In this document: piece by piece, positions 3,144-14,434 of the stretch
How the letters are laid out: every line of letters begins with the position of its first letter
Position numbering within the stretch: the first letter of the stretch is position 1
Assembly (NCBI RefSeq): GCF_028561335.1
Contig: NZ_JAQQTG010000020.1
Span: 186,001-250,000 of the forward strand
Direction: 5' to 3'
Length of the DNA stretch: 64,000 nucleotides
DNA from: Aequorivita todarodis
GTDB taxonomy: Bacteria > Bacteroidota > Bacteroidia > Flavobacteriales > Flavobacteriaceae
Notes under the pieces: model-generated
What the model was told of the DNA's origin: nothing
What the model saw: only the letters and a program-made list of their open reading frames with translations
Databases searched by the model: none
Program-made: the position numbers and the translations under genes

Positions 3144-3542
3144 TTATGCAAACTTAGGTGGCTGAAAAATTGAGAATTTTTCAAGTGAGGAGTATAGATT
3201 TTGATAGTGGAAGGTGTGCGATTGCCGTGCATGTATTTCCACCTTTACAATAGAAATTTCAAAAGGAACCAGCACCACATCTGTTGAAAGATGGTGGCAG
3301 GAAATATGCTGAAAAGGTAATTCTTCATGCTCCTCGTCTTCCTCATTGTGATTTTTCTGGTGCTCCATTTTTAAGGAGCCGTAGTGTTTTTCAACGAAAG
3401 TGAAGAAATCGTCGCCGTAATTTTCAGAGTGGTATTCAGCGTGCTGAACCAAGCGCCCGAGCAGAAGAATATCCTGCACCCCAAAACCTACGCTTTGGAA
3501 AACGATAAGCAAGGAAAACGTTATGGCAAACAGTGATTTCAT
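3144..3542 (-). CDS. Small His/Glu-rich secreted protein preceding czcA
   Basis: This is a 132-aa protein with an N-terminal signal peptide (hydrophobic residues about 3-20). A central stretch is rich in His and Glu (around residues 55-85, with HQKNHNEEDEEHEE and ISCHHLS), and the tail ends IFQPPKFA. It lies 142 bp upstream of the czcA start on the same strand. The His/Cys/acidic composition and the position suggest a periplasmic metal-binding accessory of the efflux system. That role is inference, as I know no characterised family. Small proteins of this kind with a QPPK-like tail are, to my knowledge, common beside metal RND pumps in Bacteroidota. Confidence 0.8.
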   Translation of the reverse strand: MKSLFAITFSLLIVFQSVGFGVQDILLLGRLVQHAEYHSENYGDDFFTFVEKHYGSLKMEHQKNHNEEDEEHEELPFQHISCHHLSTDVVLVPFEISIVKVEIHARQSHTFHYQNLYSSLEKFSIFQPPKFA

Positions 3543-3824: not shown

Positions 3825-5282
3825 TTATTCAGGAATTAAATACCAAAAAGGTTTCATTTTGGCCTTGTACATAAAGGCATAGTGCAGCATTAGTTTTAGC
3901 CAATGGCCTGCCAACCCGATTTCTCCAAAGGTTTTTCCCAGTTTTCTGCCCATGGTATCTGGATATTTTTTGTAATCTGGCACAATGGGAAAGGTGGTGA
4001 TACTAACCCCACTGCCCTTTGTGATCCCAAAGCCCGCTGAGGCGATACAGGCCGCGCCCATATTGCCCATAGAGCCTTTATGGTGCAAGGATTCCGTATT
4101 GTTTTTTATACTGTCTATAATATTGTCTGCAACCAATTTGGCCGTAATTCCAGAGGGCATCCCCGTTCTTGGTGGCGCTGGAAAGATTTCGGTGCCATTT
4201 GGACTTTTGCGGGGTTTGGAAATGCTATGCGGCGGTGCAAAAGCAATCCCCGGTGCAAAAATGTTTTTATAGTTTGGGTTTTGATAGGTTTCGGGCCAGT
4301 CCTGCACCGTCCAATCTTCATAAGGTTTTGGCGCGTAGTCTGCATCCACGATCATAAATCCTTTAAAAAGTTTTTCCGTAATGTCGTTATTGTTTTTATC
4401 AAAAGCCTTAAATCCGTGGCCAGAGAAGGATGGAATCAACATCGCAAAATCGTATTCAATGGTTTTATATTCCCCGGTCAAAGTTTCATAATGTGCAATT
4501 CCGTTTTCAATTTTATTTACGCCTGCGCCCAGAATCCAATCAATATTGCGATCTTCAAAAACCATCTCGACCATTTCGTGCGATTTCATAATGTTGCTGC
4601 CGTAGCTTAGCAACATACCGTCCATTCCAAAGTCTCCCAATTCATATTCGTTGGAAATCCAAGTAATTTTAGCTTTGTCGCGAACCTTTTGACGGCGAAG
4701 CTCCTGTTCCACATTCAATATATATTCAAAGGCAGCACCTTGGCAGGTAGCCTTTGCGTGGCCTGTGCCGATAACAATTTTTGCCTCTTTACCCTTTTTC
4801 ATTTCAGCAATTAGGGCCTGTAAACCTTCATTGGCGTGGTCTGCATGGGTATAGGTACAAACCGAATACGTTTTGTTTGTTCCGGGATTCAATCCTTCAG
4901 TAGCCTCAAAATTGAGTTTGGGACCTGTGGCGTTTATGAGGTAATCGTAAGTTATTCTTTCGGTTTCGCCTTTTTTTTCTGCGGAAACATATTCAGCCAC
5001 CACAAATGGCTTTTCAGTTTCGCTATCGCCTTCGGGATAAAAGGAGGTAACTTTCGCCTGCTTAAAACCAATTCCTTTCTTTTTATATAAAGGTGCAAGC
5101 GGAAAAAGTATTTCCTTTGATTTCATTCGGCCAATGCCCACCCAGATGTTTGAGGGAATCCACTGATAATTGCTATTGGGCGAAACCACGATTACTTCGT
5201 GGGTCTTGTCCAGTTTTCTGCGAAGGTGTGAGGCAGCTACGTGACCCGAGATTCCTGCACCCAATATTACGATTTTTGACAT
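3825..5282 (-). CDS. sqr: Sulfide:quinone oxidoreductase (FAD)
   Basis: A 485-aa FAD-dependent membrane-associated oxidoreductase that would oxidise sulfide to polysulfide/persulfide and pass electrons to the quinone pool. An N-terminal dinucleotide-binding motif (GAGISGHVAA, residues 8-17) begins the FAD domain. Three cysteines sit where SQRs carry their redox/trisulfide cysteines: C142 (VCTYTHADHA), C180 (ATCQGAAFEY) and C412 (AACIASAGFG). The conserved AP(P)RTGMPSG segment lies near residue 370-377, followed by an amphipathic C-terminus (HWLKLMLHYAFMYKAK) suited to monotopic membrane binding. Its upstream region carries one of the five GTAAC-N4-GTTAC-like operators (5402-5415). The three-Cys pattern supports SQR over NDH-2 or flavocytochrome c. 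Confidence 0.88.
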   Translation of the reverse strand: MSKIVILGAGISGHVAASHLRRKLDKTHEVIVVSPNSNYQWIPSNIWVGIGRMKSKEILFPLAPLYKKKGIGFKQAKVTSFYPEGDSETEKPFVVAEYVSAEKKGETERITYDYLINATGPKLNFEATEGLNPGTNKTYSVCTYTHADHANEGLQALIAEMKKGKEAKIVIGTGHAKATCQGAAFEYILNVEQELRRQKVRDKAKITWISNEYELGDFGMDGMLLSYGSNIMKSHEMVEMVFEDRNIDWILGAGVNKIENGIAHYETLTGEYKTIEYDFAMLIPSFSGHGFKAFDKNNNDITEKLFKGFMIVDADYAPKPYEDWTVQDWPETYQNPNYKNIFAPGIAFAPPHSISKPRKSPNGTEIFPAPPRTGMPSGITAKLVADNIIDSIKNNTESLHHKGSMGNMGAACIASAGFGITKGSGVSITTFPIVPDYKKYPDTMGRKLGKTFGEIGLAGHWLKLMLHYAFMYKAKMKPFWYLIPE

Positions 5283-5371: not shown

Positions 5372-5415
5372 CAAAATTGCAGTAATTTATAGTGTAGTAC
5401 AGTATCTTTTGTTAC
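5372..5415 (-). promoter_or_regulatory. Operator plus -7 box of sqr (site A)
   Basis: The palindrome GTATC-tttt-GTTAC (5402-5415, one mismatch from GTAAC-N4-GTTAC) is followed after exactly 22 bp by CAATTTTG (5372-5379 on the minus strand), 5 of 6 matches to TAnnTTTG. Spacing and orientation are identical to the four other sites in this block. The predicted transcription start is near 5366, giving a leader of about 85 nt before the sqr ATG. Confidence 0.7.
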
Positions 5416-5435
5416 ATAGCATAAAAAAATTCCTA

Positions 5436-5738
5436 TTAAGGCTTTTTTTCAAGTCTGTTTCTTATAATCTTGACAGCAATCAACCCGATAGCACCACCTA
5501 ATAGTGATACCGCCATATTAATTGCAAACAAAACAACATTTACGCCTCCAGATTCCATTATTGAAATAGGATCAAAACCAAGTTTTCCAAATATTTTAAT
5601 AAAGAAAATACTGCCGAAAATTCCTGCGATGGTATTTGCTGTAAATCCCATTGTATATTTTTTCTTAATGGTGCCATATACATTAGCTCCAATAATGCCA
5701 ACAAAAATGCTGATAATTGCTATGAGTGTATCTGTCAT
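5436..5738 (-). CDS. Small three-helix membrane protein (GlsB/YeaQ-like)
   Basis: A 100-aa protein with about three hydrophobic helices (residues 4-22, 33-50 and 64-92) separated by short basic loops, ending KIIRNRLEKKP. The glycine-rich second helix (TMGFTANTIAGIFGSIFF) resembles the GlsB/YeaQ/YmgE transglycosylase-associated family, but the match is by general pattern only. It starts 23 bp after the cydB stop on the same strand, so it is probably the third gene of the cydAB operon and under the cyd operator. Function in that context is unknown. Confidence 0.75.
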   Translation of the reverse strand: MTDTLIAIISIFVGIIGANVYGTIKKKYTMGFTANTIAGIFGSIFFIKIFGKLGFDPISIMESGGVNVVLFAINMAVSLLGGAIGLIAVKIIRNRLEKKP

Positions 5739-5761
5739 AATAAATGTATTTCAGAATACGG

Positions 5762-6838
5762 TTAATGTTCCCCATAGCCCACATCGTCCATCTTCCCTTT
5801 AAAAATACGATACTGAACAAACATATAAACTGCAACTAGAATGGCAGCAATTACAAACCAATATACACCAACTGACAATCCATATTCATGCGCAGCAACA
5901 TTATAAAGCGTTAAGGAAGGATTCACATCATTGGTTGAAGGCAATACTTTTGGGAATATTGAGGCCACGGTAGTGGTTAATCCGCCAAATAGAAACAAGG
6001 ATGAGAACAAAAAACCCACCCCATCCTTCTTGAAGGACTTTACTTTGAACAAACCGAAAAGTCCCGTGAATGCAATAAGTGGGAAAATCCAAAGCCACGG
6101 ATTTTCTATAAAGTTATGAAAAGGTTTTGGTTCAATAATGTGCCAAGTCAATAATGAGGTTATTACCAAAGCCAACAATCCAATATTCAGTTTAAAAACT
6201 ACTTTTTTTAGCTTTTGATTTAAATCGGAATTTGTTTTGAAGATAATCCAATTTGCTCCGTGAATGGTTAATGACACTACGCCTACCACCCCCAATAACA
6301 ACGTAAACCAATCAATGATACCCAAATGTTCTGCATGGGGGCTAAAGGATGAATTCCAAAGGGGTAAAAAGAAATAATGGGGTTCGTGTGCAGAAACACC
6401 ATCGGTTACCATTCCTAAATTCACGCCCCTAACTACATTCCCCAAGGCAATTCCAAAAAACAGAGCCAATAATAAACTTGCAATTCCAAAGGCTTTATCC
6501 CAAATAATTTCCCACATTTTATTATGGATTTGCCCCCGCAACTCCAGGCCAATTGCCCTAAAGATTAGCAACCACAAAATCATAATTAACGGTAAGTAAA
6601 AGCCACTAAATGATGATGCGTATAAAGTGGGAAAAGCAAAAAACAACACACCTCCAGCAGCAATAAGCCAAACTTCGTTGGCATCCCAAAATGGGCCAAT
6701 TGCGCTTGTTATAGCTTTTTTATCTTTTTCAGTTTTAGCAAAAAATAAATGGATGATGCCTGCACCAAAATCATAACCATCCAAAATAACATAGATGGTC
6801 AACATTGTCATTAAAACGATATACCAAAATAATTCCAT
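5762..6838 (-). CDS. cydB: Cytochrome bd ubiquinol oxidase subunit II
   Basis: A 358-aa polytopic membrane protein, the non-heme-ligating partner of CydA in the bd quinol oxidase. The N-terminal motif ILDGYDFGAGI (residues 18-28) and the FWDANEVWLIAAGG segment (about 49-62) are diagnostic of CydB. The length fits the family (about 335-380 aa), with eight to nine predicted helices. The start lies 2 bp after the cydA stop, so the two are co-transcribed and probably translationally coupled. bd oxidases are known to be far less sensitive to sulfide than heme-copper oxidases, which suits their place beside sqr. Confidence 0.97.
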   Translation of the reverse strand: MELFWYIVLMTMLTIYVILDGYDFGAGIIHLFFAKTEKDKKAITSAIGPFWDANEVWLIAAGGVLFFAFPTLYASSFSGFYLPLIMILWLLIFRAIGLELRGQIHNKMWEIIWDKAFGIASLLLALFFGIALGNVVRGVNLGMVTDGVSAHEPHYFFLPLWNSSFSPHAEHLGIIDWFTLLLGVVGVVSLTIHGANWIIFKTNSDLNQKLKKVVFKLNIGLLALVITSLLTWHIIEPKPFHNFIENPWLWIFPLIAFTGLFGLFKVKSFKKDGVGFLFSSLFLFGGLTTTVASIFPKVLPSTNDVNPSLTLYNVAAHEYGLSVGVYWFVIAAILVAVYMFVQYRIFKGKMDDVGYGEH

Positions 6839-6840
6839 AG

Positions 6841-8175
6841 TTAGATTTGTTTTGTGGTTTCAGGCCCTTTATTGATGATTTTTCCTGCTAGCATTAAAAA
6901 TAGCAATCCCAATAACAAATAAAGACCAATAAAACCAAGCAAGGTGAATAATGTGTTTCCCGATGAGACGGTTGGCGAAATGCCATCAGCAGTTCGCAAG
7001 AGATTATAAACCAACCAAGGTTGCCTACCCAATTCTGCGGTGTACCAACCCGTAGTATTCGCTATATAGGGAAATGGCAACATAAACATCAGAGACCATA
7101 AAATCCATTTGGTTTTATAGAGTTTCTTTCGGAACAATTGAATGCTTGCAAGAAGCATTAAAGCAATAAAAATTGTACCCAAGCCAACCATAATATGATA
7201 TGAATAATACAATCCAGGAATGTTAGTGGGGTATAAACTTTCATCAAATTCATTCAAGCCTTTTATTTTAGCATCCCATCGCTGATAAGTTAAAAAGCTC
7301 AACACATTTGGAACGGCAATTTTGTTGTCGAGTTTTTTATTTTCCGTATCTGGCTGCCCAATTAAAATAATTTCAGAACCTTTATCTTCTGTTTCAAAGA
7401 TTCCTTCCATAGCCGCGAAAGTTACAGGTTGATGTTTTACAACATTTTTAGCGGTCCAATCTCCTGTGGGAAAAGCCACCAAAACGCTAGAAACCAAACC
7501 AAAAATCACTCCAGTTTTTACGAAAAGTTTTCCGAATTCACTATGTTTATTGCTTAACAGATAGAATGCGCCTATGGCTGCCACTACAAAAGATGCTGTA
7601 ATAACTGACGCCAATTGATTGTGCAAATAAGAAGGCAGCAACCAAGGGTTGGAAAATAGAGCCCCAAAATTGTTAAGCACAAATTTTCCATTCTCTAAAA
7701 TTTCATAACCTACCGGATGTTGCATCCAAGAATGGGTAGCTATAATTAAATAACCACTAGCCCAAGACCCTAAAAACACTAGAAATCCCGTTAGGAAATG
7801 GAGCTTTTGACCCATTAATTTTTCTCCAAAAAGAAATAACCCCAAAAACGAAGATTCAAGGAAAAAGGAAAACATCCCCTCCATTGCAAGGGTCTGCCCT
7901 ATAATACCCCCTGTAAGCTCTGAAAACTTTGCCCAATTGGTTCCAAATTGAAATTCCATTGGAATTCCGGTAACAACACCCATTGCAAAATTAAGTGCGA
8001 AAATCTTCATCCAAAATTTCGCGGCATCGTTGTATTTATCAATTTTGGTTCTTAGGAATTTCCATTTAAAATAGACAATCATTAAAGACAGTCCCATGGT
8101 CAATTGTGGAAATAAATAGTGGAAAGTGATAGTAAATGCAAATTGCATTCTATCATAAAAGAGCATATCTTCCAT
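6841..8175 (-). CDS. cydA: Cytochrome bd ubiquinol oxidase subunit I
   Basis: A 444-aa heme-bearing subunit that oxidises quinol and reduces O2. The N-terminal FHYLFP carries H19, the heme b595/d ligand. Further conserved parts are the segment GIPMEFQFGTNWAKFSE, the short periplasmic Q-loop around KIAVPNVLSFL, and the later GWYTAELGRQPW motif. The family length for short-Q-loop enzymes is 440-460 aa. It is the first gene of cydA-cydB-(100-aa membrane gene), driven by the operator/promoter at 8206-8249. Being part of the same operator set as sqr and the peroxiredoxin suggests induction under sulfide or low oxygen. Confidence 0.97.
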   Translation of the reverse strand: MEDMLFYDRMQFAFTITFHYLFPQLTMGLSLMIVYFKWKFLRTKIDKYNDAAKFWMKIFALNFAMGVVTGIPMEFQFGTNWAKFSELTGGIIGQTLAMEGMFSFFLESSFLGLFLFGEKLMGQKLHFLTGFLVFLGSWASGYLIIATHSWMQHPVGYEILENGKFVLNNFGALFSNPWLLPSYLHNQLASVITASFVVAAIGAFYLLSNKHSEFGKLFVKTGVIFGLVSSVLVAFPTGDWTAKNVVKHQPVTFAAMEGIFETEDKGSEIILIGQPDTENKKLDNKIAVPNVLSFLTYQRWDAKIKGLNEFDESLYPTNIPGLYYSYHIMVGLGTIFIALMLLASIQLFRKKLYKTKWILWSLMFMLPFPYIANTTGWYTAELGRQPWLVYNLLRTADGISPTVSSGNTLFTLLGFIGLYLLLGLLFLMLAGKIINKGPETTKQI

Positions 8176-8205
8176 ACTTCAGAAAATTGATGGTGAAAAT
8201 CTAAA

Positions 8206-8249
8206 CAAAGATAAAAGATGCAGCTTCTTTATAATGCAACTTTTGTTAC
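8206..8249 (-). promoter_or_regulatory. Operator plus -7 box of cydAB (site B)
   Basis: GCAAC-tttt-GTTAC (8236-8249, one mismatch from the perfect palindrome) lies 22 bp upstream of a perfect -7 element TATCTTTG (8206-8213, minus strand). The operator centre is 33 bp from the -7 centre, so it lies at about -41.5 from the expected start near 8200. This is class II activator geometry. The leader to the cydA ATG would be about 25 nt. Confidence 0.8.
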
Positions 8250-8336
8250 AGTTTGTAAAATATGCTGCTCCTTTTTCTACCTTTATCTAAATTATCCATA
8301 TTTTGAACCTCAGAAAATACCAATCTATTTAAAACC

Positions 8337-8990
8337 ATGATAGTCCACGACTTCAGCAACGAAAATTCCGTTCTCAACCAATTTGTTCTGGAAATGCGCG
8401 ATGTTTCCATTCAAAAGGATTCCATGCGCTTTCGGAAAAATATTGAGCGTATTGGGGAAATTCTCAGTTATGAGATGAGCAAAACACTTCACTATAAAAC
8501 GGAAGTGGTAAAAACGCCGTTGGGGGAAAAGGAAATGAAAGTACCCGAAACGGATATTGTTGTTTGTTCCATTTTACGGGCGGCCCTGCCCCTTCACACG
8601 GGGGTTATAAGTTTTTTTGACAAGGCCGAAAACGCTTATATTTCTGCATTCCGGCACCACGCCGATGGCGATGATGCCTTTGAAGTGATCGTAAATTATC
8701 TGGCATCGCCCTCCGTTGAGGGAAAAACCTTGATATTGACCGACCCGATGCTGGCAACTGGAAAAACGTTGGAAAATGTGCTTAAAGCCTTTAAAAGTCA
8801 CGGAATGCCAAAGCAAATCCATATTCTATCCATCATCGGCGCCAAACCCGGAATAGCGTATATTCAGGATAAATTTCCCGAAAATACACATCTTTGGATA
8901 GCAGCCGTAGATGAAAAACTAAACAGCCGCGGCTATATTCTGCCGGGCTTGGGCGATGCTGGCGATTTGGCCTTTGGTGTGAAATTGTGA
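8337..8990 (+). CDS. upp: Uracil phosphoribosyltransferase
   Basis: A 217-aa cytosolic enzyme making UMP from uracil and PRPP (pyrimidine salvage). The PRPP loop LILTDPMLATGKT lies at residues 132-144 and the uracil-binding GYILPGLGDAGD at 199-210, both typical of the family; the length also fits (about 208-217 aa). It is the only plus-strand gene in the first 17 kb and has no visible link to the surrounding sulfur genes. Its TGA (8988-8990) directly abuts the stop of the convergent MBL-rhodanese gene, so no room is left for a separate intergenic terminator. Confidence 0.96.
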   Translation: MIVHDFSNENSVLNQFVLEMRDVSIQKDSMRFRKNIERIGEILSYEMSKTLHYKTEVVKTPLGEKEMKVPETDIVVCSILRAALPLHTGVISFFDKAENAYISAFRHHADGDDAFEVIVNYLASPSVEGKTLILTDPMLATGKTLENVLKAFKSHGMPKQIHILSIIGAKPGIAYIQDKFPENTHLWIAAVDEKLNSRGYILPGLGDAGDLAFGVKL

Positions 8991-10331
8991 CTATTTAAAA
9001 TCCTCAACATCGTCACTTAGATCATAAACTTTTTCAATCTTTAACTCTTTCTCCAGAATACTACTACCGGCAGCGCTGCGGTATCCTCCTGCACAGTGTA
9101 CCACTATGGGTTTGTCGGTAGGAATCTCCTCCGCTTTTTCGCGCAATTGGTGTAACGGAATAGCAATGGCTTTGTCAAAGAATTTCCCTTCGGATACCTC
9201 ACTTTCATTACGAATATCAACTATGGTGTACTTTTCTGTATTCTTTTTGAAATCCTCCAAATTGAAAGCAGCCGATTTTTCAAAACTGGCACTCCCGAGG
9301 GTAAATACTGTTTTTACATTGGCTTCATAACCTATCTTAGCCGTACGGTGAAGAATTTTTTCAGCATTTTCAATGGAATCGACAACCAAATGGAATTTCT
9401 CATCAGGCCGTACAATAGACCCCAACCAGGTTTCAAACTTTGATGTGTCGGAAGTAGCCATAATATTTATACTGCCCGGCAAATGGTTTTTCTTAAAATC
9501 TTCCTCATCGCGAATATCAATAATCAGGGCATCATTTTCGGCTTTTTCAACATCCAACTTAAATGAAATACCGCCCAATGCAGTCCGCAGGTTTTTTGCA
9601 CCGTTTTTGTTTATATCCACATTATACCCAAAATAATGCGGGATAAAAGGTTGGGAAACCAGCAAATGATTTACAAACTGCTCCTCTGTCTGCTTCTTAA
9701 ATGCCCAATTGCCAATGCGCTCATTGCCCAACGTACTTGACGAAGCGTCCTCGCTCATTCCTTTTCCGCAGAGGGAGCCTGCGCCATGGGCTGGATAAAC
9801 ATAGGCCGTATCGGGCAAATCGGTAAATTTATTTTGAATGGTATCATACATCATTTTTGCAAGTTCCTCGCGTTTGGCCTTCATATGGCCAGCCTTTTCG
9901 CGTAAATCGGGACGGCCAACGTCACCCACAAACAGGGTGTCGCCTGTAAATAGAGCTGTCTTGTTTTCTTCCGTGGCAACAATGGTAACGCTATCGGGCG
10001 AATGGCCCGGGGTATTTATAGCCCTAAAAGTGGTATTGCCCATTTTAACCTTATCGCCATCGTCAAAAGAGACGTGTGGGTAATCAGCGCCCGTTTTCAC
10101 ACTACAATATAAAGTTGCGCCTGTTTCGTTATGAATTTGAAGATGTGAACTTACAAAATCAGCATGCGGATGGGTTTCAAAAACGGCAACAATTTTAGCA
10201 TCGTTTTCTTCGGCATATTTATAGTATTGCTGTGGGTTTCTTTCGGGATCTACCAATGCCATTTTGCCATCACTGATAATAGCGTATGAAAAATGCGAAA
10301 GAGGTTCGTATTCAAATTGTTTAATTTTCAT
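8991..10331 (-). CDS. MBL-fold persulfide dioxygenase fused to two rhodanese domains (CstB-like)
   Basis: A 446-aa protein with three parts: an ETHE1-type metallo-beta-lactamase domain (residues 1-240; iron/metal ligands H54, H56, D58, H110, D131, H182), a rhodanese-like domain without catalytic Cys (about 255-345), and a C-terminal active rhodanese with C413 in CAGGYRS. C188 in GSLCGK matches the conserved Cys near the metal site of staphylococcal CstB. The same architecture in CstB converts low-molecular-weight persulfides to sulfite/thiosulfate. It follows the peroxiredoxin gene after a hairpin (10356-10396), so it may depend on read-through from the operator-controlled promoter or on its own start. 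A paralogue lies at 62450-63832. Confidence 0.9.
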   Translation of the reverse strand: MKIKQFEYEPLSHFSYAIISDGKMALVDPERNPQQYYKYAEENDAKIVAVFETHPHADFVSSHLQIHNETGATLYCSVKTGADYPHVSFDDGDKVKMGNTTFRAINTPGHSPDSVTIVATEENKTALFTGDTLFVGDVGRPDLREKAGHMKAKREELAKMMYDTIQNKFTDLPDTAYVYPAHGAGSLCGKGMSEDASSSTLGNERIGNWAFKKQTEEQFVNHLLVSQPFIPHYFGYNVDINKNGAKNLRTALGGISFKLDVEKAENDALIIDIRDEEDFKKNHLPGSINIMATSDTSKFETWLGSIVRPDEKFHLVVDSIENAEKILHRTAKIGYEANVKTVFTLGSASFEKSAAFNLEDFKKNTEKYTIVDIRNESEVSEGKFFDKAIAIPLHQLREKAEEIPTDKPIVVHCAGGYRSAAGSSILEKELKIEKVYDLSDDVEDFK

Positions 10332-10355
10332 AATCCTTTTTATTTAAATATAATA

Positions 10356-10396
10356 AAAATCAGCCTTGAAGACAAAACCCCAAGGCTGATTTTTTT
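10356..10396 (-). terminator. Hairpin terminator between peroxiredoxin and CstB-like gene
   Basis: Arms AAAATCAGCCTTG (10356-10368) and CAAGGCTGATTTT (10381-10393) form a perfect 13-bp stem with a 12-nt loop and T-runs on both strands. Placed after the peroxiredoxin stop, it should end or attenuate that transcript before the CstB-like gene. Confidence 0.75.
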
Positions 10397-10402
10397 AAGC
10401 GC

Positions 10403-11065
10403 TTAAATACTTTTCTTCGCCAAATACCAATCTACTTTTTCCAACGAATCGTCTGCCAATCTTTCATTAAGCTCATCCAATGTTTTTGGGGGCCCTACAA
10501 TTACCTTATCCCCTTTTTTCCAATCCAAAGGCATTGCCACGCCATATTTATCTGATGTTTGAAGGGCATTCAGCGCACGTAAAATTTCGTCCATATTTCT
10601 ACCCACATTTAATGGATAGTACATTATCAAACGTATTTTCTTATTGGGATCGATAAAGAATACCGCGCGTACGGCAGCTGTTTCACTTTCATTGGGTTGA
10701 AGCATCCCGTAGCGTTTTGAAACCTTCATATCCAAATCTGCTATAATCGGGAAATCAAAATATACGCCTGTATTTTCCCTTACATTTTGAACCCAGCCCA
10801 AATGTGCGTGTATGCTATCTATACTCAAACCTAAAAGCTCTGTGTTGAGTGCGTCAAACTCACCCTTTCGCTGTGCGAAACCACTCATTTCGGTGGTGCA
10901 GACAGGTGTAAAATCGGCTGGATGCGAAAACATCACTACCCATTTGTCCTTGGCAAAGTCTGAGAACTTTATTTTTCCTTTTGTTGTAACCGCCTCAAAA
11001 TCTGGTGCGTTATCTCCTATTCTCGGCATTGTGTTTACTTGTTGTAATTCTGAAGTTGTTTCCAT
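10403..11065 (-). CDS. 1-Cys (Prx6-type) peroxiredoxin
   Basis: A 220-aa thiol peroxidase that reduces H2O2, organic peroxides or peroxynitrite. The only cysteine is the peroxidatic C56 in SHPADFTPVCTTEM; no resolving Cys exists, and the long C-terminal extension (dimerisation arm) fits Prx6/1-Cys enzymes of about 210-225 aa. The usual family start MPRIGDNAPDF is preceded here by 12 extra residues. The gene is preceded by a perfect GTAAC-N4-GTTAC operator at 11132-11145. Regulation together with sqr and cyd suggests it handles oxidised sulfur species or respiratory peroxide; the link is inferred from position and operator. Confidence 0.93.
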   Translation of the reverse strand: METTSELQQVNTMPRIGDNAPDFEAVTTKGKIKFSDFAKDKWVVMFSHPADFTPVCTTEMSGFAQRKGEFDALNTELLGLSIDSIHAHLGWVQNVRENTGVYFDFPIIADLDMKVSKRYGMLQPNESETAAVRAVFFIDPNKKIRLIMYYPLNVGRNMDEILRALNALQTSDKYGVAMPLDWKKGDKVIVGPPKTLDELNERLADDSLEKVDWYLAKKSI

Positions 11066-11101
11066 AATAATTAATTTTAACTATTCTTTTTAAATTTTAG
11101 A

Positions 11102-11145
11102 TAAAATTAAGCTATAATGAATTTGTGTACAGTAACATAAGTTAC
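11102..11145 (-). promoter_or_regulatory. Operator plus -7 box of the peroxiredoxin gene (site C)
   Basis: The perfect palindrome GTAAC-ataa-GTTAC (11132-11145) is followed after 22 bp by TAATTTTA (11102-11109, minus strand), 5 of 6 matches to TAnnTTTG. Centre-to-centre spacing is again 33 bp. The site begins upstream of, and just clear of, the tauE stop codon at 11147. Confidence 0.8.
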
Positions 11146-11146
11146 A

Positions 11147-11959
11147 CTACTGTTTGACTATAAATTCCATATAGAAGATGAAGATGGCCATTACAAAAAT
11201 AAAATAGCCAAAAGCCTTTTTCAGTTTTTTTCCATCGATAAAATTCCCGAGATAGCTACCGATGAAAATACCTATCAGTGATATTGTTGTGATGGTCAAT
11301 AGAAAAATCCAATCTATCTGTCGTACCAGGGCATCGCCCAGAAAAAAACCAATCAATGAATTTAGCGCAATAATAATAAGTGAAGTCCCTACGGCCACCT
11401 TCATCTCTACATTGGCCAAAAGAACCAGGGCAGGTATTATCAAAAAGCCACCACCCGCACCAATGATACCTGTTACGGCGCCTAAAATCAATCCCTCAAT
11501 CAATATTAAAGGATAGTTGTACTTTACTTTTCCAGTAGTTTTTTTGGTTAGATTTTTTTTTCCATTTAGCATGGAAAAGGCAGCGGGAATCATTAAAAGT
11601 GCGAAAAGACCAAACATCCCCATTCTTCGGGTGAGTTGGAATTGGCCTATGGTCAATAATACATCCGGCAAAGCGGGCACTAAATAATGCCTTACCAATG
11701 TAACCCCGATAATTGCCGGAAAACCAAATACAATTGCAGTCCGCAAATCTACATAGCCTTTGAAATATTGTTTTATTCCACCAACCAGTGCGCTGGTTCC
11801 AACAATGAACAGTGAGTAAGCGGTCGCAGATTTTTCATCTACCGAAAATAAATAAGCCAAAACCGGCACTGCCAAAATAGAACCTCCGCCGCCAATAATG
11901 CCCAAGGATAAACCTATAAACAATGCGCTTATATATCCAAGGATTTCTATTAATGCCAT
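11147..11959 (-). CDS. TauE/SafE-family sulfite/sulfonate exporter
   Basis: A 270-aa inner-membrane permease with about eight helices and the two internal glycine-rich repeats of the family: IGGGGSILAVPVL (residues about 22-34) and GAGGGFLIIPALV (about 167-179). Members export sulfite, sulfoacetate or related organosulfur anions. Here it follows the CstB-like and SQR genes and carries its own perfect operator at 12007-12020, so export of sulfite made during persulfide oxidation is the likely role (inference). It is monocistronic: the next gene downstream has a separate operator. Confidence 0.92.
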   Translation of the reverse strand: MALIEILGYISALFIGLSLGIIGGGGSILAVPVLAYLFSVDEKSATAYSLFIVGTSALVGGIKQYFKGYVDLRTAIVFGFPAIIGVTLVRHYLVPALPDVLLTIGQFQLTRRMGMFGLFALLMIPAAFSMLNGKKNLTKKTTGKVKYNYPLILIEGLILGAVTGIIGAGGGFLIIPALVLLANVEMKVAVGTSLIIIALNSLIGFFLGDALVRQIDWIFLLTITTISLIGIFIGSYLGNFIDGKKLKKAFGYFIFVMAIFIFYMEFIVKQ

Positions 11960-11976
11960 AATTACGGGTTAAGGGT

Positions 11977-12020
11977 CAAAAATAGCTGGTTTAATTGAGG
12001 TATCAAGTAACATCGGTTAC
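11977..12020 (-). promoter_or_regulatory. Operator plus -7 box of tauE (site D)
   Basis: The perfect palindrome GTAAC-atcg-GTTAC (12007-12020) lies 22 bp upstream of a perfect -7 box TATTTTTG (11977-11984, minus strand). The expected transcript starts near 11971, only about 12 nt before the tauE ATG. The N4 core differs from the other sites while both half-sites are exact, which argues for selection on the half-sites. Confidence 0.85.
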
Positions 12021-12034
12021 AATGTGGCTATGCC

Positions 12035-12616
12035 CTATTTTTTTGAAAGCATAAAAAACAATTCATTTCCCGCTCTTTGTGGAATTGAATTATAAGCGAC
12101 CTCCATTGTCTCTATTTTAAATTTTTCTTTAAAAAGGGAGAGATACTCTGTTTTATTTCCCCCGAAAGGAGGTTTGTCATCGTTTAAGGGAATATTGAAA
12201 AGTAATCCTACCAACTTGCCATTTGGCTTGAGCATTTTGTGCATTTTATTTACATATTCTTCACGAAGTGATGGTTCCAACGCACAAAAGAAAGTCTGTT
12301 CCAAAATCAGGTCGAAGGTGTCCTCCAATTCAAAAAAGTCGGCGTGCAAAAGGTTGTCCTTAGGAAATGACGGGAGGCGCTCCGCAAGATTTTTTAAGGG
12401 TATAGATGAAATATCCACCACAAAAACATTGTTAAAACCGTTTTCAAAAAGGTATTCCGCCTCATAGGAATTACCGCCGCCGGGGATCAAAATCTTTAAA
12501 TTTTTATCTGAAAGTTGGTCGATGTATTCCTTTATTGGCGTAGAAACGTAGCCAATATCCCAGCCCGTTTCACCACTAAGGTATTTGTGGTTCCAAAAGG
12601 TTTCGTAATAATTCAT
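12035..12616 (-). CDS. SAM-dependent methyltransferase, thiopurine S-methyltransferase (TPMT) family
   Basis: A 193-aa single-domain class I methyltransferase. The N-terminal WNHKYLSGETGWDIGY (residues 8-23) matches the WexRW..G.tgWd block of TPMT-like enzymes. SAM motif I is LIPGGGNSYEAEYL and motif II FVVDISSIPL. TPMT-family proteins methylate thiols, selenium/tellurium species or other small nucleophiles; in this sulfur block, methylation of a thiol or sulfide is a reasonable guess but not shown. It starts 3 bp after the cytochrome c/DUF3365 stop, so the two are one operon under operator E. Confidence 0.87.
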   Translation of the reverse strand: MNYYETFWNHKYLSGETGWDIGYVSTPIKEYIDQLSDKNLKILIPGGGNSYEAEYLFENGFNNVFVVDISSIPLKNLAERLPSFPKDNLLHADFFELEDTFDLILEQTFFCALEPSLREEYVNKMHKMLKPNGKLVGLLFNIPLNDDKPPFGGNKTEYLSLFKEKFKIETMEVAYNSIPQRAGNELFFMLSKK

Positions 12617-12619
12617 ATG

Positions 12620-13645
12620 CTAATTTTCAAAACGGATACTCCAAATGCCGCGCACTTCATTTTCGCCATAGCCAGTAGCCTTATCCATTGGGTACAGTTC
12701 CTGTATCTTGGACAAGGTGAGGGTTTCCAGTTCCTTTCCGGGCGTGCCGTGACATTTTAAGCACATGGAATTGGTAACGATGGGGTAATAAAATTCTGTT
12801 TCCTTGCCCAAATCAACCACAATCGGGTTTGCCTCGTCTCCGGCAACTACTTGTTTTTTAAAGTTTTCAAGATATTGTAGCTCTGCGGCATTGGCTTTGT
12901 TTTGTGGGTTTCTCGGTTTATCGGTAACGCGTTTTATATGTGCCTTATGGACGGTAGCCATACTGTCCGTTATGGGCAGAGCTTGGACATTACAAAAGTC
13001 AAGTGCAGCGATAACCCCGTTTTTCTGGATCTGGCCCATCAGGTTTTTCCCCAATTCAGCCTTGGTGGACTGGGCCATTTGCATGCCGCGTTCCTTTACG
13101 GAAGGTTGGGCATTTGTATCTCGGTTTTTACCCATTCCTTTGCCATTCCCCATTCCGCGACCCATTCGGCCTTTCATCTGCGGTCTGTCGCCGTGCATTT
13201 GCTTGTAGTGGGCGTCAAACCATTCGGGCTCTTCTATATCGTTATCAAACATATAATCTGCAATTTGCTTGATAGTTTCCTCTGGATAGAATTGATAGGG
13301 CATCAATCCGAATTTCTTGATGGCGCCGGGCATTTTTGATTTTTCTTCGGAAGGATTCTTGGCCCACGCCACCATTGCCTCAATAAATTCTTCCTTTGAA
13401 GTTTCCTCAGAAATATAATGCATCTTTACGGCTACCATCGGAGGGGCAATCATTGCATCTTCGGCAGTTTTTGGATTGTGGCAAACGTAACAGTTGTTTT
13501 CCATCAATTTCTTGCCGGGATGTTCCTGATTTATTTCGGTTTCAGTGTTGTCTGCATTTTCGGCAATCGCCAAATATTCGCTGCGGGGATTGGTATTGCA
13601 GGCAGTGAATAAACTGATCAAAAATAATGTGGCTAAAAGTTTCAT
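12620..13645 (-). CDS. Lipoprotein with cytochrome c and DUF3365 heme domains
   Basis: A 341-aa lipoprotein (lipobox Cys C16, LFTAC). Residues about 40-130 form a small cytochrome c domain with C52-x-x-C55-H56. A Met/Gly-rich linker follows (about 155-170), then a DUF3365 (Tll0287-like) domain ending in a second heme motif, CLKCH, at 295-299. DUF3365 domains are c-heme sensor or electron-transfer modules. The protein is presumably periplasmic and membrane-anchored; both hemes are plausible electron carriers or ligand sensors. It is the first gene of an operon with the TPMT-like gene and is controlled by a perfect operator at 13703-13716. Confidence 0.88.
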   Translation of the reverse strand: MKLLATLFLISLFTACNTNPRSEYLAIAENADNTETEINQEHPGKKLMENNCYVCHNPKTAEDAMIAPPMVAVKMHYISEETSKEEFIEAMVAWAKNPSEEKSKMPGAIKKFGLMPYQFYPEETIKQIADYMFDNDIEEPEWFDAHYKQMHGDRPQMKGRMGRGMGNGKGMGKNRDTNAQPSVKERGMQMAQSTKAELGKNLMGQIQKNGVIAALDFCNVQALPITDSMATVHKAHIKRVTDKPRNPQNKANAAELQYLENFKKQVVAGDEANPIVVDLGKETEFYYPIVTNSMCLKCHGTPGKELETLTLSKIQELYPMDKATGYGENEVRGIWSIRFEN

Positions 13646-13672
13646 ATTTTAAGTATAAAGTTGTGGACACTT

Positions 13673-13716
13673 CAAAAATAAAGGGAAACTTCACCCTTGA
13701 CAGTAACAAAAGTTAC
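13673..13716 (-). promoter_or_regulatory. Operator plus -7 box of the cytochrome c/TPMT operon (site E)
   Basis: The perfect palindrome GTAAC-aaaa-GTTAC (13703-13716) stands 22 bp upstream of a perfect -7 element TATTTTTG (13673-13680, minus strand). It lies in the 102-bp gap between this operon and the end of the Crp/Fnr gene, 32 bp from the regulator's stop codon. Confidence 0.85.
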
Positions 13717-13747: not shown

Positions 13748-14380
13748 CTAAAGTGCGATTATTTTAATACTATTTCGGTTAAGTTCGATTTTCCCCATGG
13801 ATTCCAGCTTTTTCAACAAACGCGATACCACTACGCGCGAAGTATGAAGCTCATATGCAATTTCCTGATGGGTGGAATTGATGAGGGAATCATTGGTTAT
13901 CTTTTGTTTGTTTTGAAGGTATTTTACCAAGCGCTCGTCCATATTGTAAAATGCAATGCTGTCAATGGTTTCAAGCATTTCGGTAAGGCGGGCGTGGTAA
14001 CTTTGAAAGACGAAATTGCGCCAACTTTTATACTTGCCCGTCCACTCCTCCATCTTTTGGATGGGAATCATAATCAAGGTTGTGTCGAGCTCTGCAATGG
14101 CGCGGATCTCACTTTTGGTCTGTCCCAAACAGCAGGTTAGGGTCATTGCGCAGGTATCGCCGCGTTCCAAAAAATAGAGCAGCAGTTCGTCCCCATCATC
14201 GTCTTCCCTTAAAATTTTAATCGCTCCTGAAATAAGCAAAGGCATGGAACGCACGTAATCGCCAATTTCAATTACCTTTTCGCCTTCCTTGACTTCCTTT
14301 AAAACCCCTACTTGGCCAATTTCGTCAATTAGGGCGTCCTCAAAAATATGCGAGAAGTTTTCCTTTAAATTATCGAGCAT
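13748..14380 (-). CDS. Crp/Fnr-family transcriptional regulator
   Basis: A 210-aa regulator with an N-terminal cyclic-nucleotide-like beta-roll (about 20-115), a dimerisation helix (115-140) and a C-terminal winged helix. The ATG at 14380 is chosen over a GTG two codons upstream. Three cysteines (C77, C83, C84) lie in the sensor domain. There is no FNR-type N-terminal Cys cluster, so an [4Fe-4S] sensor is unlikely. The recognition helix TSRVVVSRLLKKLE aligns with CRP so that R180 and R185 are kept (R182, R187) but E181 is replaced by V183, as in cyanobacterial NtcA (GTA-N8-TAC). That half-site preference fits the five GTAAC-N4-GTTAC operators in this block. No operator is visible before its own gene. 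Confidence 0.93.
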   Translation of the reverse strand: MLDNLKENFSHIFEDALIDEIGQVGVLKEVKEGEKVIEIGDYVRSMPLLISGAIKILREDDDGDELLLYFLERGDTCAMTLTCCLGQTKSEIRAIAELDTTLIMIPIQKMEEWTGKYKSWRNFVFQSYHARLTEMLETIDSIAFYNMDERLVKYLQNKQKITNDSLINSTHQEIAYELHTSRVVVSRLLKKLESMGKIELNRNSIKIIAL

Positions 14381-14434
14381 TATCACTTTTGTTTGGTTGG
14401 TTTTTTTTGACTTACGAAAATACCACTTTTATAA

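Follow-up and report, generated by a model that had tools for sequence, protein, structure and literature searches.

A short operator at a fixed promoter distance probably marks sulfide-handling genes of Flavobacteriaceae for joint activation by a Crp/Fnr-type protein

A stretch of 64,000 nucleotides from Aequorivita todarodis (assembly GCF_028561335.1, contig NZ_JAQQTG010000020.1, positions 186,001 to 250,000; hereafter the window) contains five promoters on the minus strand that share a 14-bp palindrome, GTAAC-N4-GTTAC, and lie near a gene for a Crp/Fnr-type regulator (13748-14380, minus strand). The palindrome is perfect ahead of a peroxiredoxin gene (11132-11145), tauE (12007-12020) and a cytochrome c/TPMT-like gene pair (13703-13716), and copies with one mismatch, also counted as operators, precede sqr (5402-5415, GTATC half) and cydAB (8236-8249, GCAAC half). 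On the same strand each operator is followed, 22 bp further on, by a match to the -7 box TAnnTTTG: CAATTTTG at 5372-5379 (sqr), TATCTTTG at 8206-8213 (cydAB), TAATTTTA at 11102-11109 (peroxiredoxin) and TATTTTTG at both 11977-11984 (tauE) and 13673-13680 (cytochrome c/TPMT-like pair). An earlier note, made from the letters of this DNA, had described these five palindromes and boxes; all were re-found with the same mismatches and strand, and the gap is exactly 22 bp in five of five. This short operator at a fixed distance from the promoter probably marks sulfide-handling genes that are switched on together by one protein of the Crp/Fnr type.

All genes behind the window operators are on the minus strand. 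The sqr gene (3825-5282) encodes a sulfide:quinone oxidoreductase-like (SQR-like) protein of the flavin adenine dinucleotide type with a match to Pfam Pyr_redox_2. Its listed solved relatives are all SQRs (3hyv, E 2.1e-36, residues 3-291), and it scores under the NCBIfam cut-off of SQR_III_seleno (66.4 vs 525), the only SQR model listed and one for a special subtype. Cytochrome bd oxidase, which is sulfide-tolerant, is represented by cydA (subunit I, 6841-8175, Pfam E 9.8e-149) and cydB (subunit II, 5762-6838, Pfam E 4.9e-77); the final gene of this unit (5436-5738) encodes a protein of 100 amino acid residues that has no Pfam or NCBIfam match and is conserved after cydB in two further loci (L129, L133). 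The peroxiredoxin gene (prx, 10403-11065) encodes an AhpC/TSA protein with a 1-Cys Prx C-terminal domain (Pfam 1.8e-33; NCBIfam NF009668 above cut-off) and is followed downstream by a gene for a persulfide-dioxygenase-like protein with a metallo-beta-lactamase (MBL) fold and a rhodanese domain (8991-10331; Pfam Lactamase_B and Rhodanese), the solved relatives of which are 3tp9, BpPRF (5ve3) and ETHE1 (4chl). A perfect 14-nt inverted repeat with arms ending in A/T runs lies between the two genes (10355-10394) and may be an attenuator or a bidirectional terminator inside the proposed operon; both genes are presumably co-transcribed despite it. The remaining targets are tauE (11147-11959, Pfam E 4.8e-37), of the TauE/SafE sulfite-exporter family, and the genes for a protein with cytochrome c and Tll0287-like domains (12620-13645; Pfam Tll0287-like 2.2e-23, Cytochrom_C 9.5e-05) and a TPMT-like methyltransferase (12035-12616; Pfam TPMT 4.3e-24). 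The window gene at 3144-3542, located behind sqr, lacks its own site; its homologue in Aequorivita vitellina is preceded by an exact operator and a -7 box that scores 6/6 (L132:14605).

With up to one mismatch, the palindrome occurs eight times in the window versus 1.04 expected (standard deviation 1.08; none of 100 shuffles reached eight). The three remaining copies (23737, 38498 and 56269) lack a -7 box at 22 bp, whichever strand is read. Boxes scoring at least 5/6 are found at 0.95% of window positions. With positions treated as independent and 30 offsets and two strands allowed for, all five operators would share a single box offset by chance with a probability of about 5e-9. For the sigma-A of Flavobacterium psychrophilum, TAnnTTTG has been placed at -12 to -5 (PMC9723704). 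With start sites inferred from this box position, the operator is centered at -41.5 in all five window promoters, as the earlier note had it, and the deduced 5' untranslated regions are about 85, 26, 32, 13 and 23 nt long for sqr, cydAB, prx, tauE and the cytochrome c/TPMT-like pair, respectively. On the same inferred starts, the arrangement is that of a class II Crp-type promoter, with a site near -41.5 in place of the upstream core element.

We scanned the whole host assembly (3.33 Mb, 51 contigs) with the composite pattern GTAAC-N4-GTTAC-N22-TAnnTTTG, using the reversed pattern as a control. The composite with its spaced -7 box stands out in the genome, and the palindrome alone is not enriched. 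Exact composites number three, two in the window cluster and one before a TolC-type efflux operon. Of the seven composites with up to one mismatch, six are located on contig C13 between 165 and 200 kb, within about 34 kb, and they include one for a DUF302 gene that adjoins the TolC gene, at the same spacing; the sqr site, which has two mismatches to the composite, is on C13 too. The seventh (C37:2311-2354) precedes an apparent repeat of a neighboring gene and may be either a chance match or an extra target. Five perfect palindromes exist in the genome: three in the window cluster, one on contig C23 inside a repetitive open reading frame (ORF) and without a -7 box, and one at C13:165567, which is separated from the sqr operator by 26 kb and from the most distant window operator by 34 kb. 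The last is followed after 22 bp by TATGTTTG and precedes an operon of TolC (OEP) and MFP (HlyD) genes, then a gene for a large transporter that by eye is of the RND type. The regulon of the earlier note thus stands for its five promoters and falls short in extent, since further sites belong to DUF302 and the TolC-MFP-RND operon, 26-34 kb away, and the persulfide-dioxygenase-like gene comes after prx. The note had also named the finding that would speak against it, namely the palindrome and spacing scattered over unrelated promoters; run on the host genome and on relatives, this test did not refute the regulon.

In the host, the stretch that separates the DUF302/TolC sites from the sqr cluster (C13:167000-189000) contains transposase-like, ParA-like, helicase-like and nuclease-like genes and an RND/MFP pair of heavy-metal type (all by eye), as well as a gene that PADLOC identifies as a type IIG restriction enzyme-methyltransferase (E 4.4e-295). 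In one other locus (L131) the DUF302 and TolC sites adjoin the sulfur cluster, and in another genome (G027) the TolC site and the regulator share a contig at a distance of 83 kb. Given the adjacency in L131 and the island-like genes in between, the distance seen in the host may reflect an inserted island.

Whether such sites could be chance palindromes near AT-rich promoters can be judged from the control counts. In the host genome the palindrome alone occurs five times exactly versus ten in the reversed control, and 84 times versus 272 with up to one mismatch, figures that speak against our interpretation and for chance. Composites with up to three mismatches number 49 versus 94 in the control; they are noise, and weak matches are uninformative because their count is under that of the control. 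For exact composites the outcome is the opposite. Our survey of 149 Flavobacteriaceae genomes, representing 148 genera, identified 192 copies in 94 genomes and a single copy of the reversed control, and this, together with the sharp spacing, contradicts the chance explanation, to which we give next to no credence. Chance palindromes are discounted on the window shuffles and, for the composite, on the reversed controls. Scanning with the palindrome only was rejected as a diagnostic, its counts being under the control and one perfect copy being boxless.

When the gap was left free between 8 and 38 bp, the matches listed had mostly gaps of 22 bp, some of 21 and 23 bp and scattered others, and the control was then not empty. 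Several genomes (G025, G047, G137, G120 and others) have the operator at 21 bp and may form a subgroup with shifted geometry. A second set, the 80 named loci, comprises regulator neighborhoods totaling 1.46 Mb, related genomes included (ten are Aequorivita). Of the 6261 inverted dyads ranked here (5-bp halves, gaps of 0-10), GTAAC-N4-GTTAC comes out on top: 185 copies, spread over 77 of the 80 loci, were seen versus 1.1 expected. Its z is 177, and that of the runner-up dyad is 24. A -7 box scoring at least 5/6 is placed at 22 bp, read in one orientation or both, in 174 of the 185 copies, whereas each of the other offsets from 18 to 26 bp has a box in one to six copies. The operator logo extends beyond the palindrome, with T before the left half in 87% and T and G after the right half in 67% and 65%, respectively. 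In Aequorivita relatives the sites are repeated in front of the corresponding genes; the operator is also found ahead of the SQR gene in L078, L128, L130 and L133, ahead of cydA in L129 and L133 and ahead of prx in L129, L130, L133 and L134. In the best phylum-search matches, an exact operator is present within 1.5 kb of the regulator in 11 of 20 loci inside the family and in three of nine outside it (L220, L231, L235).

The product of the regulator gene (ATG at 14380; in-frame GTG at 14386) belongs to the Crp/Fnr superfamily, with matches to PF00027 (cNMP_binding, 4.9e-10) and PF13545 (HTH_Crp_2, 6e-09), both above cut-off. Its fold matches Crp, NtcA and FNR structures, and its nearest solved relatives are a protein of Eubacterium rectale (3dv8) and, second, NtcA. 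It scores under the NCBIfam cut-offs of NtcA (38.8 vs 244.95 bits), Fnr (24.1 vs 228) and CRP (50.4 vs 266), and the named loci closest to it are those of Aequorivita, at 86-94% identity. The recognition helix reads SRVVVSR. In the 80 named loci the form SRVV[VI]SR is near-invariant, with both serines and both arginines in 80 of 80 and the first valine in 79. We take the arginine and valine to be the residues of NtcA at these places and the valine to stand where Crp has the glutamate that reads TGTGA; arginine and valine agree with a GTA-N8-TAC operator. The first valine is replaced by glutamate in three of the 29 best phylum-search matches (L230, L233, L236), and in the 1.5-kb flanks of these three loci none of the palindromes tried was found.

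Relatives of the regulator at E <= 1e-40 are present in 118 of 345 genomes of the phylum. The exact composite occurs in 92 of 116 genomes with an orthologue (E <= 1e-60) and in two of 33 others, ten of which have only a weaker match (Fisher p = 9e-15); for the closest orthologues (E <= 1e-75) the site is found in 76 of 83 genomes. The operator also precedes the regulator gene itself in eight of 161 linked cases in the named loci. Co-occurrence and these sites before its own gene support the choice, already made in the earlier note, of the Crp/Fnr gene as the common activator, its activating role being predicted. We assign the operator to this protein because of linkage, co-occurrence, autoregulatory sites and helix type. 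A different DNA-binding protein might use the operator, the Crp/Fnr gene being a mere neighbor; two genomes have the site without a close orthologue, and binding by the regulator is a prediction. We consider this very improbable in view of the linkage and co-occurrence, the putative autoregulatory sites in eight named loci and a helix that resembles that of NtcA, whose site is GTAN8TAC. A two-fold operator at -41.5 is, moreover, typical of a Crp/Fnr dimer.

The position of the operator bears on the sign of control. In the 175 promoters of the named loci with an oriented site, the -33 position reads ACTG in 95, and TTTG appears in two within the interval that begins 15 bp and ends 25 bp ahead of the -7 box, a figure that is partly due to construction, the fixed half-site covering part of that interval. 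Because the operator overlaps the -33 position, a repressor bound there could block the promoter, and with cytochrome bd among the targets the protein might alternatively be an FNR-like activator for low oxygen only. The lack of TTTG in 173 of 175 promoters, with the limit just given, favors dependence on an activator; the regulator is far from the Fnr cut-off, and the targets are mainly sulfur genes. Both versions, repressor and FNR-like activator, appear highly unlikely to us.

For 161 of the 175 oriented sites an ORF starts within 300 bp, at a median of 23 bp past the box. Clustered by BLAST, the first genes behind these linked sites encode MBL-rhodanese proteins (45, of which 41 match the window protein), TauE (38), Sulf_transp of the YeeE type (14), SQR (12), cytochrome c/Tll0287 (10), the regulator (8), Prx (7), the protein encoded before the regulator (7; without a Pfam match, presumably DUF983), SulP (5), TolC (3) and the fatty-acid-hydroxylase family (3), in addition to one pair and seven singletons, which include a sulfite-oxidase-type molybdoprotein, the alpha-acetolactate-decarboxylase family and CydA. 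To lessen the bias towards the vicinity of the regulator, we hand-picked 60 places among the composites listed that were judged to be away from it; two turned out to have a regulator-type gene no more than about 2 kb away. These places hold 61 sites and 59 first genes. Family counts, which overlap within proteins and cover 25 of 30 families, are led by OEP/TolC (14), rhodanese (8), Thioredoxin_9 (7) and TauE (5), followed by Lactamase_B (4), SulP (3), fatty-acid hydroxylase (3), DsrE (2) and YgaP-like (2), with one each for CydA, Tll0287, Sulf_transp, plastocyanin-type and HMA. Most of the genes controlled from these sites deal with sulfide, persulfide, sulfite, thiosulfate or sulfate; thioredoxins, cytochrome bd, peroxiredoxin and an efflux pump are also represented. 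The earlier note spoke of sulfide, respiration and peroxide genes; sulfide and sulfane-sulfur handling describes the targets better than the peroxide label does. In six loci (L242, L245, L253, L259, L270, L286) a look-alike unannotated protein of 117-121 residues (similarity judged by eye) is encoded by a gene that starts 5-9 bp past the -7 box of an exact composite, and it is a candidate member of the regulon.

The sulfur targets, taken together with conserved cysteines, suggest that the regulator senses sulfane sulfur, with about even chances. Cys77, Cys83 and Cys84 are present in 29, 27 and 28, respectively, of the 29 best phylum-search matches (L208-L236), 20 of which come from the same family, and the three were invariant in the first 23 regulators aligned, where they are numbered 79, 85 and 86. 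This stretch presumably corresponds to the nucleotide (ligand) pocket of Crp. Sulfane sulfur, that is persulfide or polysulfide, acting on these cysteines would be the likeliest signal, a proposal we hold as firmly as we doubt it. The broader claim, that the regulator senses sulfane sulfur at its cyclic-nucleotide pocket, by means of the conserved motif Cys-x5-Cys-Cys, and drives a family-wide sulfide-oxidation regulon in Flavobacteriaceae, is just as evenly poised. Two points tell against the proposal: the counts of 80, 80 and 79 for the three cysteines in the 80 named loci are biased, one of the two search patterns having contained them, and the structure model has a predicted local distance difference test (pLDDT) score below 50 at residues 79-88, which makes its cysteine geometry unusable.

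It is also conceivable that the regulon is right and the signal is redox state or oxygen, perceived through bound heme as proposed for PgRsp of Porphyromonas gingivalis, with the sulfur genes as one output. Cys76 and Met78 of PgRsp match the spacing of Cys77-x-Met79 in the window regulator, and an E. rectale Crp homologue was the template of the final PgRsp model (PMC6955866), just as the best solved relative of the window regulator is from E. rectale; cydAB and peroxiredoxin are among the targets. On the other side, the targets are mostly genes for sulfide, persulfide, sulfite, thiosulfate and sulfate. Furthermore, heme binding by PgRsp survived single changes of Cys76, Met78 or His85, and its DNA binding was unaffected by added heme (PMC6955866). 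Overall, we regard heme-based sensing as unlikely.

Several observations count against a lineage-conserved activator as a whole. Some genomes have gaps of 21 or 23 bp, and six of the nine loci outside the family have no exact operator in their short (1.5-kb) flanks. The site is present in only 16 of 33 genomes with weaker orthologues (E 1e-60 to 1e-75), 24 of 116 regulator-bearing genomes lack an exact composite, and the two genomes with sites and no close orthologue are G010 and G088. Targets without an evident sulfur role include the fatty-acid-hydroxylase and alpha-acetolactate-decarboxylase families, HMA and plastocyanin-type proteins. With these points weighed, we consider it very probable, from sequence comparison, that the protein is a lineage-conserved Crp/Fnr activator of a sulfide and sulfane-sulfur regulon, acting from class II sites at -41.5.

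Computation shows the sites, their fixed spacing, how they are conserved in the family, which genes follow them and that they co-occur with the regulator; we infer that this protein binds and activates, and in which direction the genes respond. A dimer of the regulator would bind TGTAAC-N4-GTTAC(TG), an NtcA-type GTA-N8-TAC site, centered at -41.5. Its downstream half-site would occupy the place of the -33 box of a Flavobacteriaceae promoter, making RNA polymerase dependent on the regulator; this would be class II activation by an NtcA-like protein. So bound, the regulator is predicted to turn on sqr for the oxidation of sulfide, prx and the MBL-rhodanese gene for dealing with persulfide, tauE for the export of sulfite, and the cytochrome bd oxidase genes cydAB. 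The cytochrome c/TPMT-like pair would respond too, as would DUF302 and the TolC-MFP-RND efflux operon at a distance of 26-34 kb.

Class II activation of the Crp type is known, and its use for a sulfur regulon in this lineage is apparently undescribed in the literature searched: among the titles and abstracts judged, we found no description of this regulon or of a flavobacterial sulfide regulator. Flavobacteria are reported among the thiosulfate oxidizers of marine sediments, and Bacteroidota belong to the phyla in which added sulfide raises the levels of sqr and pdo transcripts (PMC12345210). A regulon legible from operator and spacing would make flavobacterial sulfide regulation directly testable. 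The 14-bp operator and its single spacing predict further sulfur-linked genes (DUF302, the TolC-MFP-RND pump and the protein of about 120 residues), and the sharp 22-bp rule would provide a clear example of how class II activation operates with a promoter as unusual as that of Bacteroidetes.

The regulator has the Crp/Fnr domain plan and class II geometry in common with FNR and cAMP-CRP, whose NCBIfam cut-offs it misses; the half-sites of both differ from GTAAC/GTTAC. The closest likeness in DNA is to NtcA of cyanobacteria, the second-best solved relative: GTA-N8-TAC is contained within GTAAC-N4-GTTAC, and the printed NtcA sites read GTAN8TAC and are positioned at -41.5, with 22 nt separating one of them from its -10 box (PMC3898017). 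NtcA serves nitrogen control by 2-oxoglutarate, whereas here the operator is extended to GTAAC...GTTAC, the targets are sulfur genes and the NCBIfam NtcA cut-off is missed. PgRsp, which binds its own promoter, is likewise a Crp/Fnr protein of Bacteroidetes outside the best-known families, with Cys-x-Met near the same numbering; set beside our regulator by description only, it differs in being reported as a heme-binding redox sensor with hmu and bcp as targets, no operator being named in the parts of that study consulted (PMC6955866). A1S_1182 of Acinetobacter baumannii is a Crp-family protein reported to be highly persulfidated in sulfide-exposed cells, yet it is near E. coli Crp (50%) and Vfr (54%), and control of sulfide genes is not among the features given in the available part of that report (PMC7315123). 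Cysteine-based responses to sulfide or persulfide and sulfide-handling targets are shared with CstR (CsoR-like), SqrR/BigR (ArsR family) and FisR (a sigma-54 activator); of these, CstR and SqrR act by repression and FisR together with sigma-54, and none is described in the part consulted as a Crp/Fnr protein (PMC9774590). If our proposal is true, it would place a sulfur sensor inside the Crp/Fnr superfamily and add a class beyond the CsoR-, ArsR- and sigma-54-type sulfide regulators named above.

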